From: a virus
Direction: 5' to 3' (one strand)
DNA length: 21,198 bases
IMG/VR virus record: IMGVR_UViG_3300025132_000374
Span: 1 to 21,198 of that record
Position numbers and translations under genes: made by a program. The notes under the pieces were generated by a model. The model was not told the origin of the DNA, did no database searches, and was given only the letters and a program-made list of their open reading frames with translations. Of this stretch, positions 3,710 through 14,259 are shown in pieces; position 1 is the stretch's first letter, and the number at the start of each line of letters is the position of its first letter.

Positions 3710-6700
3710 GTGGCTTTAGTCATAAACGATAGAGTAAAAGAAACCTCTACCACAACTGGTACAGGTACATTTAGTTTAGCAGGAGCAGTTCAAGATTTTG
3801 AAACTTTTGTTGCAGGAATTGGTTCAACCAATACTACATATTATTGCATAGTAAATTCTGGAACAGGTGAATTTGAGGTTGGTATTGGAACAGTAACAGA
3901 CGCTAGTCCTGACACTTTATCAAGAGACACAGTTATTTCTTCATCTAATTCTGATGCAAAAGTAAATTTTGCAGCAGGTACAAAAGATGTATTTTGTACC
4001 CTACCTGCATCAAAAGCAGTTGTAAAAGATTCAAATAACGATGTTACACTTCCAGCAGATTTAAATGTTGGTGTTAATTTAGATGTCGATGGCCTTACTA
4101 CAACAGATGGAATAACTAACGTTGGTAATTTTTCTACAGATGGTGGAACAATTAAACTAGATGGTAATTATCCTGTAGGAACAAATAACGTTGCATTAGG
4201 AGATCAAGCATTAGATGATGGTTCTTTGTCTGGTGCACACTCCACAGCAATAGGTCATGTAGCTTTGACTTCTAATACTTCTGGCTCTCATAATACAGCA
4301 GTTGGTTCAAATTCTTTAACTACTAATACTACAGGTGGCTGTAATGTTGCTATGGGTGTAAGTGCAGTTGCTATGAATGTTTCTGGTAATCGTAATACAG
4401 GACTAGGTAGATCAGCTTTACAAGAAAATACAACAGCATCTGATAATACAGCAATAGGTTATTTTTCTATGTGTAGTAACTTGACAGGTGCAACTAATAC
4501 AGCTGTTGGTATGTGTTCTTTAAAATCAAATACTTCAGCAGATGACAATACATCAATAGGTGGTCAAACACTTACAGCTAACACAACAGGTGGCTGTAAT
4601 ACAGCTTTAGGTCAAGGTGCTTTATTTACCAATACCACAGGTGGCTGTAATACAGGTATTGGTCGTCATGCTTTACTTTTAAATACAACAGGGACAAGAA
4701 ATGTTGCAGTAGGTTTTTGCACTTTACAAGCAAATCAAACCGGTGGAAACAATGTGGCGGTTGGATTTTGTGCTGGTCAAAGTAATACAGGAACAGCTAA
4801 TGTAGCAATAGGAGATTCCGCTCTTAGACTTAACACTGCGAACGATAATACTGCTGTTGGTAATAGAGCATTATATTCACACACAACAGGTGTTTCTAAT
4901 GTTGCCATAGGTTATCAATCTTTATGTAGTAACACTACTGCTTCTAATAATACTGCTCTTGGTTATCGATCTTTATGTGCTAACACAACAGGTTGTTTTA
5001 ATGTTGGATTAGGTTCATGTTCTTTAATATGCAATACAACGGGCTCTAGAAACACAGCAGTTGGTAGACAATCTTTACATTGCAATACTACAGGTGGTTT
5101 TAATACTTCTTTAGGGCTAGACTCTATGTATGAAAACACAACAGGGTCATGTAACACTGCTGTGGGTAGAAGCTCTATGCTTTGTAACACAGAAGGTGCT
5201 TGTAATGTTTCTGTTGGAGAACATGCACTAGGTAAAAATACAACAGCAAATAATAATACAGCAATTGGTTTCCAGGCTATGAGATGTAACACAACAGGTG
5301 CTCAAAATACAGCAGTGGGAAGATTAGCACTTGATGCTAATACGACAGCTGCTGAAAATACTGCTATGGGTAATAGTGCTTTGGGTGCAAACACAACAGG
5401 TGAAAAAAACACTGGATTGGGAAGTTCCTCTTTAAGTGCTACCACAACAGGTTCATGTAATACAGCAGTTGGTATGGATGCAATGTTATCTAACACAACA
5501 GGTTCATGTAATACAGCAGTTGGACATAAATCTTTATGTTCTAACACTACAGCAGATGATAACACAGCAGTCGGCACAAGGTCACTTTGTTCTAATACGA
5601 CAGGTACAAATAATGTTGCAGTAGGAAGACAAGCATTAGAAGATAACACAACAGCATCAGGTAATACTGGAATAGGTAAAAGTTCTTTATTAGAGAATAC
5701 AACAGGTAGTAATAATTTAGCATCAGGTTTTGCAGCATTACAACTTAACACAACAGGTTCTAGTAATGTAGCAGTTGGAAGTCTATCTTTAAATTCTAAC
5801 ACCACAGCATCTTCTAATACAGCAGTAGGTACTTGTTCATTAAATGCTACTACAACAGGTTGTCAAAACACAGCAGTTGGTATGGCTTCATTAGATACAA
5901 ATACGACAGGAGATAATAATGTTGGTGTAGGTTATCAGGCACTTTTCTCTAATACTACAGCAGATAATAATGCTGCAGTAGGTTATCAAGCACTTTCAGT
6001 TAATACAACAGGAGCATCTAATAACGCATTTGGTTATAGAGCGTTACGTTGTAACACAACAGCATCAAACAACACAGCAATGGGTTTTTGTGCTTTATTT
6101 GCTAACACAACAGGAGATAATAATACATCTGTAGGTACTAGTGCATTAAGCTCTAACACAACAGCAATTAATAATGTTGCTCTTGGATTTTCAGCTTTAT
6201 CTACTAACGTAACAGGTTCAGATAACACAGCTTTAGGTCATCAATCTTTAAGAGATAACACAGGTGCAGATAATACTGGAGTTGGTTATCGTTCTTTATT
6301 TGCTAATTCATCAGGAACAAAAAACGTAGCAGTCGGTCATAGTTCTTTAATTGCAAATACAACAGCTAATCAAAATACAGCTGTAGGATATTCATCATTA
6401 GGTGCAAATACAACAGGTGCTAATAATACAGCAATGGGTTGTGGTGCTTTAGTTTTAAATACTACAGGTGCAGAAAACACTGCTATTGGTGCATTATCTT
6501 TAGATGCAAATACTACAGGTAGTTATAATACAGCTGTAGGTCATTTGTCACTTACTGCTAACACAACAGCAGATGATAACACAGCCATAGGTAGAAGTTC
6601 TTTGTGTAAAAACACAACAGGTACTAATAATACAGCTGTAGGTAGATTATCTTTATTTAATAATACAACAGCAGACAATAATACAGCTGTTGGTAAAAGT

Positions 6701-9700
6701 GCTTTATGTTCTAACACTACAGGTGTTTCTAATGTAGCTGTAGGTCTTTGTTCATTAGTTGCTAATACAACAGGTGGTGAAAATACTGCCGTTGGTAATC
6801 AAGCATTAGATACAAATACTACTGGCTGTAAAAATACGGCAATGGGTAGAAACGCATTATTTGCTAATACAACAGCATCTAATAATACAGCTGTTGGTTA
6901 TGATGCACTTTTTTCTAATACAACAGGTGACTTTAATGTTTCTATGGGTGCTCTTTCACTTGATGCTAATACTACAGGTGTTGATAATACTGCCATAGGA
7001 AGTTACACATTATCTGCTAATTCTACAGGAGTAAGAAATGTAGCCGTAGGCTATGCTTCTGGATTTAACAATACTACAGCTAACGACAATACATCAGTTG
7101 GTGCTTGTTCTTTATATTCTAACACAACAGGTGCACAAAATACTGCTTTTGGTACAAATGCTTTAGGTGCTAATACAACAGCTTCATGTAATACAGCATT
7201 TGGTTGTGGTGCAATGAAATCTAATACTACAGGATCTGTAAATACAGCTTTTGGTAGAGGTGCTTTATGTTCCAATACAACAGGAGTTAATTCAACAGCT
7301 ATTGGTCAATTAGCTTTAAGAGATCAAACTACTGCTGGGAGTGGAAATGTTGCTGTTGGAGATTTAGCAGCTCTTGCAACAACAACAGGTGGACACAATG
7401 TTGTTATGGGTAACTCTGCATTTAGATGTAATACTACAGGTTCAGACAATACTGCTATTGGTGTACTTGCTTTACTTGAAAATACAACAGCAGATGACAA
7501 CGTAGCTGTTGGGTGTAGATCTCTTTGTGCTAACACTACAGGTACAAGAAATGTTGCAGTCGGTAATTTAACTCTTGATAATGGTAATGCAAATAATGAT
7601 AGTGTTGCTATTGGTTATGCTGCATTAAGTAATACATCTAATTCTTCATCTAGTAATACAGCAGTAGGTTCTTATTCTTTATTAAGTAATTCAGGTGATG
7701 ACAATACAGCTGTAGGTAGATGTGCTTTAAGTGGTAACACAACTGGATCAAGCAATACAGCTATTGGGCATAATGCTATGTATGAGGGTACAACAACAGG
7801 TGATTATAATACTATGGTAGGTGCTAGCTCTGGAAGAAAAATGACTTCTGGTACTCAAAACACAGCATCAGGTATAAATTCTTTGGAATTAAACACAACA
7901 GGAGCAAATAATACTGCTATAGGTATGAATGCTTTAGCAGCTAACACTACAGCAGAAAACAATTCAGCTTTTGGACATAGTGCTTTAGCAGCTAACACAA
8001 CAGGAACAAGAAATACAGCAGTTGGTAGAAGTGCTTTAGCTTCCAACACAACAGCAAATGAAAATGTGGCTATTGGTAAAGATTCTATGTGTACCAATAC
8101 GACAGGAACTTTAAATGTAGCAGTAGGTAATAATGCTTTATGTTCTAACACCACAGCAAATTGTAATGTAGCTGTAGGTTATGAATCTTTAGCAACTAAC
8201 ACAACAGGAACAAGAAACACAGCATTAGGTTTTAGATCGCTATGTGCTAACACTACAGGAAATGACCTCGTAGGTATTGGTTGTGGTGCTTTATTAGCTA
8301 ACACAACAGGTACAATAAATGTAGCAGTTGGTAGAGCTGCATTAGCAGATAATACTACAGGAGGTTGTAATGTAGCGATGGGTTATTTTGCTTTGGCTGC
8401 AAATACTACAGCTAATGGAAATACTGCATTAGGAAGAAGTTCAATGGGTTCCAACACTACAGGAGCAAATAATACAGCAGTAGGTTTTTGTTCTTTAAAA
8501 GGTAATACAACAGCTTCAAATAGTACAGCATTAGGTTATTCAGCATTAGAAGCTAACACAACAGGGGCAAACAATACAGCAGTTGGTTTTCAAACACTTC
8601 TTGCTAACACTACAGGAGCAAACAATACAGCTCTTGGTCTTCAGTCTATGTATTACAACCAAACAGGTAGCAAAAACGTAGGTGTTGGTAATAACTCATT
8701 AGGAGCTGGTGGTGGAGGTGGAAGTTTCTCTAGCAATACAGCAGTTGGTTTTGATGCTTTAAGAGAAGTTACAACAGGTTCTAATAACGTAGCAATTGGA
8801 ACTTGTGCGTTAGAAAATAATACAACAGCAAATGAAAATGTAGCTGTTGGAAGATGTTCTATGTTTGCTAATACTACAGGAACTCAGAACGTAGCAATTG
8901 GTAGTTATTCTCTAGATTCAAATACAACAGGAGACCATAACGTAGCTATGGGTTATCTTGCTTCATGCACTATGACAGATGGTAATAGAAATGTTGGTAT
9001 TGGTAGAGCAGCTTTACAAAGCTCTACAACACCAAATGATAACACAGCAGTAGGAGATCAGACGTTAGCAAATAATACTACAGGTGCTGGTAATACTGCC
9101 ATAGGTAGAGCTGCTATGTTAGGAAACACTACAGCTAGTGATAATACTGCTGTTGGTTGTTATGCTATGTTAAGTAACACCACAGGTATTAGAAATCTTG
9201 GAATAAGTAAATGTGCTTTAGGAAATAACACTACAGCTTCTGACAATATGGCTATTGGATTTTGTGCTTTAAAAACTAGTCAAACAGCTGGTGATAACAT
9301 AGCTATAGGTAACTTTAGTTTAAGAGATAATACAACTGGTACTACTAATACATCAATAGGTCTTTCAGCAATGAAAGAAAATACAGAAGGTACATCTAAT
9401 ACAGCAATAGGTAGATCAGCAGTATGTTCTAATACAACAGGTGATGACAATACAGCTGTAGGTAGATGTGCTTTAAGCGCTAACACAACTGGATCAAGCA
9501 ATACAGCTCTTGGAGAGTCTACTGGTAATACAGTAACCACAGGTTCAAACCTAACTTTATTAGGTCATAACGCACAACCTTCATCTGCAACAGCTACCAA
9601 TGAGATTACACTTGGAGATGCTAATGTAGACACATTGAGAATGGGTAATGGTGTCAACATAGTCAGTGGTGGTGCTTTAGTTGGTGGAGGGGGTGGTAAA

Positions 9701-10171
9701 ATTTTGCAAGTTAAACAAACTGCAAATACTTCTACGAGTAGCACATCTGGAACATCATACTCTGACCTTTCTGGTATGAGTGTTTCTATAACTCCATCTG
9801 CAACAGATTCAAAAATATTAGTTATGTTTAGTTTAAATTTTGGTACTGATAGTAGTGGTGGTGATATTCATGTTAGACTTTTAAGAGGTTCTACAGCTAT
9901 TGGTCAACCTAATAATGGTGGGGGTTATGCTAATAATGATTGTCATACTTCAGCTGGTTCTTCAAGAAATCAATACGAAATGTCAAATGTATCATCAACT
10001 TTTTTAGATACTCCATCAACAACAAGTGCAACAACATATAAACTTCAAGCTGTATCAAGACCAGATACTACAGGGCCTACTCTTTATTTAAACAGAACAG
10101 TAAATGATGCATCTGGTGATAATGGAGAAAGAACAGCATCAACAATCACAGTAATGGAAATAGGAGCATAA
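3710..10171 (+). CDS. Giant 2153-aa tail fibre with YadA-like 17-aa repeat shaft
   Basis: The start is GTG with TAGGAGGA immediately upstream (about 3698-3705). Residues 1 to about 155 form a phage fibre N-terminal region (VINDRVKETSTTTGTGTF, DVFCTLPASKAV, VTLPADLNVG) expected to attach to the tail. Residues about 157-1953 are roughly 100-105 copies of a 17-residue unit, consensus NTAVGxxALxxNTT[G/A]xx, related to the repeats of trimeric YadA-type left-handed beta-rolls. Residues about 1954-2153 form a tip domain: EITLGDANVDTLRMG, a Gly linker (GGALVGGGGGK), then a beta domain beginning KILQVKQT. No intramolecular chaperone or protease domain is recognisable. The shaft holds about 50 cysteines, unlike the neighbouring proteins. 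It probably trimerises and binds the host surface. A rise of about 0.5 nm per turn, as in YadA-like rolls, would give a shaft near 50 nm (inference). Confidence 0.85.
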   Translation: MALVINDRVKETSTTTGTGTFSLAGAVQDFETFVAGIGSTNTTYYCIVNSGTGEFEVGIGTVTDASPDTLSRDTVISSSNSDAKVNFAAGTKDVFCTLPASKAVVKDSNNDVTLPADLNVGVNLDVDGLTTTDGITNVGNFSTDGGTIKLDGNYPVGTNNVALGDQALDDGSLSGAHSTAIGHVALTSNTSGSHNTAVGSNSLTTNTTGGCNVAMGVSAVAMNVSGNRNTGLGRSALQENTTASDNTAIGYFSMCSNLTGATNTAVGMCSLKSNTSADDNTSIGGQTLTANTTGGCNTALGQGALFTNTTGGCNTGIGRHALLLNTTGTRNVAVGFCTLQANQTGGNNVAVGFCAGQSNTGTANVAIGDSALRLNTANDNTAVGNRALYSHTTGVSNVAIGYQSLCSNTTASNNTALGYRSLCANTTGCFNVGLGSCSLICNTTGSRNTAVGRQSLHCNTTGGFNTSLGLDSMYENTTGSCNTAVGRSSMLCNTEGACNVSVGEHALGKNTTANNNTAIGFQAMRCNTTGAQNTAVGRLALDANTTAAENTAMGNSALGANTTGEKNTGLGSSSLSATTTGSCNTAVGMDAMLSNTTGSCNTAVGHKSLCSNTTADDNTAVGTRSLCSNTTGTNNVAVGRQALEDNTTASGNTGIGKSSLLENTTGSNNLASGFAALQLNTTGSSNVAVGSLSLNSNTTASSNTAVGTCSLNATTTGCQNTAVGMASLDTNTTGDNNVGVGYQALFSNTTADNNAAVGYQALSVNTTGASNNAFGYRALRCNTTASNNTAMGFCALFANTTGDNNTSVGTSALSSNTTAINNVALGFSALSTNVTGSDNTALGHQSLRDNTGADNTGVGYRSLFANSSGTKNVAVGHSSLIANTTANQNTAVGYSSLGANTTGANNTAMGCGALVLNTTGAENTAIGALSLDANTTGSYNTAVGHLSLTANTTADDNTAIGRSSLCKNTTGTNNTAVGRLSLFNNTTADNNTAVGKSALCSNTTGVSNVAVGLCSLVANTTGGENTAVGNQALDTNTTGCKNTAMGRNALFANTTASNNTAVGYDALFSNTTGDFNVSMGALSLDANTTGVDNTAIGSYTLSANSTGVRNVAVGYASGFNNTTANDNTSVGACSLYSNTTGAQNTAFGTNALGANTTASCNTAFGCGAMKSNTTGSVNTAFGRGALCSNTTGVNSTAIGQLALRDQTTAGSGNVAVGDLAALATTTGGHNVVMGNSAFRCNTTGSDNTAIGVLALLENTTADDNVAVGCRSLCANTTGTRNVAVGNLTLDNGNANNDSVAIGYAALSNTSNSSSSNTAVGSYSLLSNSGDDNTAVGRCALSGNTTGSSNTAIGHNAMYEGTTTGDYNTMVGASSGRKMTSGTQNTASGINSLELNTTGANNTAIGMNALAANTTAENNSAFGHSALAANTTGTRNTAVGRSALASNTTANENVAIGKDSMCTNTTGTLNVAVGNNALCSNTTANCNVAVGYESLATNTTGTRNTALGFRSLCANTTGNDLVGIGCGALLANTTGTINVAVGRAALADNTTGGCNVAMGYFALAANTTANGNTALGRSSMGSNTTGANNTAVGFCSLKGNTTASNSTALGYSALEANTTGANNTAVGFQTLLANTTGANNTALGLQSMYYNQTGSKNVGVGNNSLGAGGGGGSFSSNTAVGFDALREVTTGSNNVAIGTCALENNTTANENVAVGRCSMFANTTGTQNVAIGSYSLDSNTTGDHNVAMGYLASCTMTDGNRNVGIGRAALQSSTTPNDNTAVGDQTLANNTTGAGNTAIGRAAMLGNTTASDNTAVGCYAMLSNTTGIRNLGISKCALGNNTTASDNMAIGFCALKTSQTAGDNIAIGNFSLRDNTTGTTNTSIGLSAMKENTEGTSNTAIGRSAVCSNTTGDDNTAVGRCALSANTTGSSNTALGESTGNTVTTGSNLTLLGHNAQPSSATATNEITLGDANVDTLRMGNGVNIVSGGALVGGGGGKILQVKQTANTSTSSTSGTSYSDLSGMSVSITPSATDSKILVMFSLNFGTDSSGGDIHVRLLRGSTAIGQPNNGGGYANNDCHTSAGSSRNQYEMSNVSSTFLDTPSTTSATTYKLQAVSRPDTTGPTLYLNRTVNDASGDNGERTASTITVMEIGA
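7694..7767 (+). repeat. 74-bp long-range direct repeat, copy A
   Basis: This copy matches 9440-9513 at 71 of 74 bases, including a 38-base identical run. It starts GGTGATGACAATACAGCTGT and encodes GDDNTAVGRCALSGNTTGSSNTAIG. The identity is far above that of ordinary units of the array, which suggests a recent intragenic duplication or gene conversion. Confidence 0.75.
9440..9513 (+). repeat. 74-bp long-range direct repeat, copy B
   Basis: Partner of 7694-7767, 1746 bp downstream. The three differences give GRCALSAN in place of GRCALSGN and NTALG in place of NTAIG. The spacing is not a whole multiple of 51 because irregular units lie between the copies. Confidence 0.75.
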
Positions 10172-10190: not shown

Positions 10191-10541
10191 ATGATAGATA
10201 TAGAACAAGCAATTAGAGCATTAGATAATAACGCAGAATTTGTTGTTGATGGAATACCAACTAATGAAGCTGAATATAAAGCACAAGTTAAATATATTTC
10301 TGGTGCAGATGAAAATAATTCAGCTATTTATTCTGATACACAACCTTTTACTTGGGAACAAGTTTTAGTTAAAAAAAATGAATTACAAGCTGAACATGAT
10401 GCTGAAGAATGGAAACGAAATAGACAAGCTGAATATCCATCACATGAAGAATGTATACATGCTCTATTAGATGGTGGCGATACATTAACAGAATTACAAG
10501 CTAAACGATCAGCTATTAAAAATAAATTTCCAAAAACATAA
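10191..10541 (+). CDS. XkdW-like / tail-assembly-type small phage protein
   Basis: 116 aa with TAGGAG upstream at about 10177-10182. The start (MIDIEQAIRALDNNAEFVVDG) and a central PFTWEQVLVKKNELQAEHD resemble XkdW-type phage proteins that often follow tail-fibre genes. The C-terminal end (EYPSHEECIHALLDGGDTL then ELQAKRSAIKNKFPK) is the short conserved tail seen in many small phage proteins of this position. It may be a fibre-assembly helper or a minor tail protein; the function is not established. It directly follows the giant fibre gene, 19 bp after its stop. Confidence 0.5.
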   Translation: MIDIEQAIRALDNNAEFVVDGIPTNEAEYKAQVKYISGADENNSAIYSDTQPFTWEQVLVKKNELQAEHDAEEWKRNRQAEYPSHEECIHALLDGGDTLTELQAKRSAIKNKFPKT

Positions 10542-11495: not shown

Positions 11496-11744
11496 ATGAG
11501 TGAAGTAAGAAACGCTGAACAATTGGCACAAGACTATACAGCTATGGGTCATTCTGTAGATTTAATCAATGCTATAATTGATGGATCTCAAATGGCAGAT
11601 GAGTCAGCTGAAGATAGACAAAGTACAGTTGACAGAAATGTTGAGCACTTAGAACTGATGGTCGCTAAAGACGATTGGGGAGATGAAGACATGACTGCCG
11701 CTAACTCAGCTATCACTGCAGGCAAAGCATACACAGCTAGCTAG
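11496..11744 (+). CDS. Small acidic conserved phage protein, unknown function
   Basis: 82 aa with AAGGAG upstream. It is acidic and probably largely helical (NAEQLAQDYTAMGHSVDLINAII, then VDRNVEHLELMVAKDDWGDEDMT) with no cysteine or membrane segment. It resembles short conserved proteins found in tail modules of marine phages, but I know no function. It lies 12 bp after the GT9-like gene and 11 bp before a fibre-like gene. Confidence 0.55.
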   Translation: MSEVRNAEQLAQDYTAMGHSVDLINAIIDGSQMADESAEDRQSTVDRNVEHLELMVAKDDWGDEDMTAANSAITAGKAYTAS

Positions 11745-13266: not shown

Positions 13267-14259
13267 ATGACTCATTACTCTTTGTTAATAGGAGCAGGAG
13301 GTTGGTTTCCTACAAGTGCTAGTGGTGGAACAGAATCTACTGAAACTATAAGTGGTGTTGAATATAGAGTCCATACATTTACATCATCAGGTACACTAAC
13401 TATTTCAAATGCAGGAACACAATCAACTGTTGAAGCTTTTCTTTGGGGAGGAGGCGGAGGTTTTGGTGGATTTACAGATACTAACAGTGATCCTGGTAGA
13501 GGGGGAAGAAATGGTGGTAGTGGCGGAGGTTCAGCTTATGCTAGAAATTTAGCGCTATCAGTAAATGAAGAGGATTTAAATATTTGTGTTGGAGGTGCAG
13601 GAGGAAATGGTAGTTTAGGATCTTCAAATAACGGAGGAGCAGGAGGCTCTGGAGTAGTAATTGGTGGATCTAATTTTTATTTTGGAGGTACAGGTGCTTC
13701 GTCAGGAATATCTTTCTCAGGTGGAGGAGGTGGAGGCGGAGGAGCCTCTGCAATTATAAGAAGTACAACAGGATTAATAGTAGCTTCAGGAGCTGGTGGA
13801 GGTGGTGGTAGTGAAAGAAGATCACTTGCTGGTAATGGAGGTGGTGGTAATTTAGATGGAACTTCAGGAGCTGGAGGTTCTGGCGGTACTGCTGGTGCTT
13901 CTAGTGATACGAATGGCGCTCAAGGTGCATCAGGTACTCATTCAGTTGCAGGATCTGGTGGTGGAGGTGTTAATGGCGGTGGCGGTGGTACGTCTCCAGG
14001 TAGCGATTTTGTTGGTGCTGGTGCTGGTGCTGGAGGTACATCTACTGCTGGAACAGGTTCAGGAACTGCAGTAGTTAATGGTGGAACACCTGCTACCACT
14101 GGTCAAGGAGTTCCAGGAGATGATGATTATAGCACGTATAATAGCAGTGGAATTTATGGAAAAGGAGGTGGAGGAGGTAGCCCATCATCACCTTCTAATG
14201 TAAATAATGCAACAGGGGGCTTAGTTGTGGTAAGATACCCAATAGAATTTCCAGGATAA
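13267..14259 (+). CDS. Glycine-rich phage adhesin / fibre tip protein
   Basis: 330 aa with TAGGAG upstream. The first 60 residues contain GVEYRVHTFTSSGTLTI and VEAFLWGGGGG, the typical entry into phage glycine-rich domains. Residues about 60-310 are dominated by GG, GGG and GGGG runs separated by short Ser/Asn/Ala segments, and the protein ends GGLVVVRYPIEFPG, a family-typical close. The composition resembles polyglycine-sandwich adhesins at fibre tips, such as T-even gp38-like proteins. It contains a single cysteine. It follows the fibre gene with a 9-bp gap, so it may cap that fibre (inference). Confidence 0.6.
   Translation: MTHYSLLIGAGGWFPTSASGGTESTETISGVEYRVHTFTSSGTLTISNAGTQSTVEAFLWGGGGGFGGFTDTNSDPGRGGRNGGSGGGSAYARNLALSVNEEDLNICVGGAGGNGSLGSSNNGGAGGSGVVIGGSNFYFGGTGASSGISFSGGGGGGGGASAIIRSTTGLIVASGAGGGGGSERRSLAGNGGGGNLDGTSGAGGSGGTAGASSDTNGAQGASGTHSVAGSGGGGVNGGGGGTSPGSDFVGAGAGAGGTSTAGTGSGTAVVNGGTPATTGQGVPGDDDYSTYNSSGIYGKGGGGGSPSSPSNVNNATGGLVVVRYPIEFPG

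Follow-up and report, generated by a model that had tools for sequence, protein, structure and literature searches.

We report on a giant fibre gene and its neighbours in a viral DNA stretch of 21,198 nucleotides (nt), IMG/VR record IMGVR_UViG_3300025132_000374, positions 1 to 21,198, which is called the window here. The fibre has a shaft of tandem 17-residue units and is followed by the genes of a GT9-like glycosyltransferase (GT) and of S82, a protein of 82 amino acids (aa). The fibre, GT and S82 constitute a mobile module, and the cysteine (Cys) content of the shaft is associated with the presence of GT. Both observations are new, and we infer that an enzyme modifying the shaft is their best explanation. 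The fibre is one gene of this three-gene module and no isolated oddity; an earlier note, made from the sequence alone, had singled out the fibre and left its neighbourhood and the link between Cys and GT unremarked.

A mobile module of the fibre, GT and S82

In a search of 50,697 phage records, 123 of which have a 17-mer-type fibre, the relatives of GT are confined to HTVC111P and HTVC112P, each directly after a 17-mer fibre. The S82 relatives come in seven records, all within the 123, and in every one S82 either adjoins the fibre or is parted from it by GT alone. In IMG/VR, the fibre lies directly upstream in 73 of the 74 GT loci with at least 700 nt upstream, and S82 lies downstream of GT in all 76 of 76 loci. 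The fibre is also upstream in 53 of the 55 S82 loci with at least 1.5 kb upstream. Among 49 same-lineage contigs fetched by an unrelated structural gene, six carry the fibre, GT and S82 together and 43 carry none of them.

HTVC111P, the backbone of which is otherwise unrelated, matches no genes of the window except those of the fibre, GT and S82; the module is therefore passed between unrelated phages. An attempt to assign the GT loci to distinct phage lineages from the genes they share failed, as single linkage merged them; hence, only HTVC111P and HTVC112P count as clearly different in backbone. HTVC111P also carries gp50, annotated as lysine-acyltransferase-like, close 5′ of its tail and fibre genes (L298:21239-21646; L-numbered names denote the fibre or GT loci or contigs collected for comparison), and this may be another protein-modifying enzyme.

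In its repeat type, the fibre agrees with tail fibres built of 17-residue repeats in marine phages and others (PHROG 23837, 6002 and 4636; HTVC111P gp52, Venkman gp55, CRP-1 gp37 and SPO1 gp2.52), and the module is present in most GT-linked relatives. Those fibres usually have ~30 units and an S74 end, whereas the window fibre has 105 units, a P-SSP7-like tip and an extra small gene.

Shaft cysteines accompany GT

We split 180 deduplicated fibres next to S82 by the adjacent GT into 83 with it (GT+) and 97 without it (GT-). Per unit, the GT+ shafts contain 0.446 Cys at the median and 0.118 at the minimum, and the GT- shafts 0 at the median and 0.143 at the maximum (Mann-Whitney, p 5e-32). The other long open reading frames (ORFs) of the GT+ and GT- loci show no difference (0.50% versus 0.45% Cys). 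A high Cys content is also seen in the second fibres of the GT-bearing loci (median 0.50, n=30). Among isolates, HTVC111P and HTVC112P with GT have 0.36 and 0.41 Cys per unit, respectively; the others have 0 (CRP-1, CRP-7, CRP-831, MW202545 and Kolga) or 0.125 (Venkman).

The shaft Cys fall nearly all in the variable columns 6, 7, 10, 11, 16 and 17 of the unit, which presumably face outward. A comparison of the window with L005, in which flanking proteins reach 99% identity, shows only 12 of 30 Cys sites retained, with 18 losses and 15 gains; the density is thus preserved although the sites move.

Where Cys-rich fibres were scored GT-free at their locus, the whole contigs were then checked for GT. 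For one of them, L038, the contig does contain GT at a different place (E 7e-124), with a further Cys-rich fibre ~1.6 kb away. In nine GT-free contigs of 23–62 kb with Cys-free arrays, no GT was found anywhere in the contig.

Two side observations concern the shaft surface. The variable columns at 4187-6951 are 37–46% identical between the window and L005, compared with 99% for several flanking structural proteins, and either a fast-changing shaft surface or unit shuffling could account for this. In several phages, genes resembling sulfotransferases are found close to GT9-like genes or to Cys-rich fibres (Table 1), and some fibres may possibly bear sulfated sugars.

The fibre gene and its repeat array

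The fibre ORF (3710-10171, + strand, GTG start) is uninterrupted for 2153 codons, as read in the earlier note, and its share of almost a third of the window was also given correctly (6462 of 21,198 nt). The claim of roughly 100–105 repeats of 17 residues is borne out by dynamic segmentation, which finds 105 units, mainly of 17 aa, at residues 160–1947, flanked by 159 aa on the N-terminal and 206 aa on the C-terminal side; the control with shuffled versions of the protein gave 0–4 units. The unit consensus is N[T/V]A[V/I/L]Gxx[A/S]LxxNTT[G/A]xx. Of the 106 segments listed, 105 have its G5; one of the 106 (residue 2068) is a spurious extra. Column 15 of the unit is G or A in the window, and adjacent A-A units occur once as against 7.9 expected (permutation p 0.0003), which makes a partial two-unit alternation.

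An assembly artefact was rejected. The inter-unit DNA identity averages 58%, exact direct repeats within the array reach 40 nt at most and every 41-mer is unique, so short reads are able to resolve the array. Moreover, the same long array is found in separately assembled IMG/VR contigs, with 107 units in L005 and, in L006, no fewer than 99 up to where the contig breaks off. Recent local duplication was rejected as well, since the unit identity does not drop with distance along the array.

The fibre protein matches the PHROG virion structural and tail spike families (E down to 0), and these matches together with a C-terminal domain like phage tail-fibre tips back the phage fibre architecture that had been proposed. 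The counterpart of the anchor is a separate ~150-aa protein in related phages (HTVC023P gp58, 79% identical over 104 aa). Among the 103 complete repeat ORFs collected in this analysis (median 30 units), the window fibre is third, behind L023 with 207 units and L005 with 107. The shaft thus ranks high, in keeping with its earlier description as very long, but it is not unprecedented. The fibre is a real, long member of an already known fibre kind.

The longest one, L023:3818-20239, is a single frame of 5474 aa with 207 units of the 17-mer repeat and 201 Cys. It lies directly downstream of two small genes, one of which has a GT2-like match (PF00535).

Table 1. Coordinates of the module genes, the fibre parts and the sulfotransferase-like genes
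Feature	Position	Strand	Remark
N-terminal anchor, aa 1-159	3710..4186	+	fibre N-terminus
Shaft, 105 tandem units, 53-54 Cys, all in unit columns 6, 7, 10, 11, 16, 17	4187..9550	+	
Distal cap and tip, aa 1948-2153	9551..10171	+	
116-aa gene, candidate assembly factor (chaperone) for this tip type	10191..10541	+	homologues near same tip
GT9-like glycosyltransferase, 298 aa	10587..11483	+	fold matches GT9 (3tov, WaaC/WaaF, TibC)
S82, 82-aa partner gene	11496..11744	+	next to 17-mer fibres with or without GT
Sulfotransferase-like	L212:8203-8997, L253:9233-9820, L120:15672-16505		Pfam match
Sulfotransferase-like	L462:2040-2894, L463:3302-4234, L464:4164-5015		sequence likeness

Shaft fold

Twelve units were modelled by AlphaFold2 as a single chain with 83 in-register sequences. 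The model is a solenoid with one coil per 17-mer (predicted local distance difference test, pLDDT, 87; predicted template modelling score, pTM, 0.83), which backs the regular one-coil-per-repeat solenoid of the earlier note, and the shaft is likely a beta-roll. The likeness to YadA, also claimed there, is only suggestive. The YadA-like heads BpaC and BoaA are among the top PDB matches of the model in Foldseek (BoaA probability 0.90), but at E values of 0.08–0.5, and a Pfam search of the fibre with an E cut-off of 0.1 matched no family, though Pfam includes the YadA head repeat. The repeat gave no useful match to Pfam, NCBIfam or PDB sequences.

With the YadA-like heads (BoaA 3s6l and BpaC 7o23), the fibre shares short tandem repeats, an invariant Gly, inner hydrophobic residues and, in its predicted solenoid, one coil per repeat. 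Unlike them, it has a 17-aa unit without a Pfam match, 105 coils, a phage anchor and a tip, and it is without the autotransporter membrane anchor; the Foldseek E values are not significant. By analogy, the shaft would be trimeric and ~50 nm long at 0.48 nm per coil.

The glycosyltransferase

The predicted GT structure (pLDDT 80) matches the GT9 members 3tov (E 1e-7), WaaF, WaaC and TibC in Foldseek, and no PDB match was found at the sequence level. All 47 of the 47 family members match PF01075 weakly (best 1e-6) with D218, H223 and G237 invariant. GT is predicted to have the GT-B fold with a GT9-type C-terminal nucleotide-sugar site. A GGxGK motif is present in all 47 aligned members, and we take its site to be the position of the catalytic Asp in WaaC, which is a lead only.

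TibC (PDB 4rap/4rb4), which heptosylates autotransporter adhesins (PMC4358343), gives a working analogy. Both enzymes have a GT9-type fold, and as TibC modifies an adhesin, GT adjoins a fibre gene and may by analogy act on its product. They differ in size (298 aa versus ~400), in the proposed substrate, a phage fibre, and in the proposed acceptor, Cys. TibC-like enzymes have an iron-binding four-cysteine finger and are dodecamers; among the 47 members of the GT family, C19 and C94 are the only invariant Cys, with no obvious cluster.

A bacterial origin of GT was rejected. In 84,980 prokaryote species genomes, there is a single match, and it sits on a contig of a Roseovarius metagenome-assembled genome (L253; JALQUE010000049.1) with phage-fibre-like genes upstream.

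Tip exchange

Residues 1995–2151 of the fibre resemble PDB 9efk orf22 and the P-SSP7 tail fibre end. This tip stands where most relatives carry the S74 self-chaperone domain; Peptidase_S74 was not found at the C-terminus of the window fibre and is present in L051 (E 5e-12). Most GT-linked fibres have the S74 end, and in nearly all S74-type fibres GT starts −1 to +52 nt past the fibre stop, which presumably means late expression together with the fibre. Where a non-S74 fibre has its gene end intact (the window, L201, L017 and L011/L009), a gap of 390–540 nt follows that holds one or two further small genes. The homologues of the 116-aa gene of the window are next to or near the window-type tip domain in HTVC026P and Lederberg.

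The window is collinear with L005, the tip type of which is the same as that of L201, at 85% up to position 6951 and again at 93% from 10540. Since the collinearity breaks off between these positions, the distal array, the tip and the 116-aa gene look replaced as a block, perhaps by recombination within the repeats. The tip type changes among the loci while GT remains, and the tip was thus rejected as the partner of GT.

The source phage

The structural genes of the window are collinear with those of Pelagibacter phages; the 650-aa protein is 69% identical to that of HTVC027P and 58% to that of HTVC023P, and many window genes are collinear with these two phages, structural proteins being shared. 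By these sequence likenesses, the phage is an HTVC023P-type pelagiphage, of a group that consists of podoviruses (PMC9599517). The fibre sits among virion genes, with SU10-adaptor-like and PHROG structural genes as neighbours. Just 5′ of the conserved 650-aa structural protein, a Gly-rich protein of 330 aa with many GGGG runs is encoded at 13267-14259.

What GT may act on

The proposed host-recognition fibre would comprise the anchor, a beta-solenoid shaft of 105 coils and an exchangeable tip, and would be exchanged between phages as a module with S82 and a dedicated GT. GT would act on the fibre and not on the host, adding sugar to the outer-face side chains of the shaft, most plausibly the variable-column Cys, which would yield a sugar-coated shaft. 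S82 may assist the assembly of shafts of this type in general, and the role of the 116-aa gene may be tied to the particular tip of the window. Modification of the fibre by GT is rather probable. That GT, in its module with the fibre and S82, glycosylates the shaft, plausibly on Cys, is the best explanation overall, and we give it an even chance. Cys as the acceptor is put forward tentatively. It is possible, though more doubtful, that a phage GT9-type enzyme S-glycosylates tens of surface Cys on a giant beta-solenoid fibre, that these Cys persist only with the enzyme, and that fibre, enzyme and partner protein form one cassette travelling between marine phages.

The glycocin S-glycosyltransferases are GT2-type and modify one Cys of a small peptide, whereas a GT9 fold and tens of shaft Cys are concerned here. 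In common with the proposed shaft modification, they put sugar on Cys of a protein substrate, as for sublancin and pallidocin (PMC6405829).

Several points weigh against shaft glycosylation. The Cys-rich fibres L033 and L023 are without a close GT relative in their partial contigs, and for the Cys-rich AG-345-L05 the only one found is a distant GT9 relative (E 7e-13). The GT profile matches nothing in the L033 contig, which does carry a cluster of sugar enzymes; one protein in it looks GT9-like at the N-terminus by eye. The changes of the GT state on the S82 tree are few, at least four; the best tree gives four independent pairs, two of them on supported branches, and all agree but are not significant alone. 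The conserved N/T/S columns are the same in the GT+ and GT- shafts, and N-x-T or Thr/Ser columns were rejected as the acceptor for this lack of difference. The Cys pattern was found by inspecting many features and not predicted beforehand. The GT9 fold tells neither protein from lipopolysaccharide (LPS) substrates nor the donor or acceptor. To our knowledge, Cys S-glycosylation by a GT9 enzyme is undescribed.

Instead of the fibre, GT might modify LPS, the surface glycan of the host, and so prevent superinfection or change the receptor; its position beside the fibre in the host-recognition region would then be incidental. The tail-region glycosyltransferases of pelagimyophages have already been read as such host-surface modifiers (PMC7029224), and GT9 includes the LPS heptosyltransferases WaaC and WaaF, also structural matches of GT. 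This reading, however, predicts no link to the shaft composition, yet the Cys content tracks GT, and GT both remains with the shaft when the tip is swapped and starts close to the stop of nearly all S74-type fibres. We consider it unlikely. Still less probable is that the Cys form disulfides or other crosslinks stiffening the shaft, with GT hitchhiking or modifying something else. A presumed trimer would hold ~160 Cys, and those of column 16 in neighbouring coils are in excess (23 pairs seen versus 8.7 expected). But there is no general pairing pattern: several close pairs, 7-10 among them (15 seen versus 34 expected), are depleted, and units with at least three Cys are rarer than expected. 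The pairing analysis does not support a disulfide ladder. Moreover, the sites turn over singly between close relatives, and crosslinking leaves the tie to GT unexplained.

Equally improbable to us is that the GT+ fibres are a few related lineages, Cys-rich by chance through shared ancestry or host, with no functional link. The few changes on the S82 tree would suffice for it, and most GT+ loci have some backbone genes in common with the window. However, the Cys sites turn over fast at a kept density, which makes inheritance by itself an unlikely cause. Among close S82 relatives, those lacking GT have 0–0.1 Cys per unit versus 0.42–0.56. As to the host, Kolga infects Pelagibacter, but its array of 20 units has no Cys and no GT was seen beside it, while HTVC111P has the same Cys-rich trait on a different backbone.

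Implications

Pelagibacter is an abundant marine bacterium, and few viruses on Earth are as abundant as the SAR11 phages, while the workings of their fibres are little understood. Fibre modification offers an alternative to the usual view that the tail-region glycosyltransferases of marine phages only modify the host LPS. The question is directly testable, as the module is present in two isolates in culture, HTVC111P and HTVC112P (host HTCC7211). If the association is functional, these phages would make a glycosylated fibre with its own enzyme, probably by a new class of Cys glycosylation, and the Cys density of the shaft would be a simple sequence marker of modified fibres.

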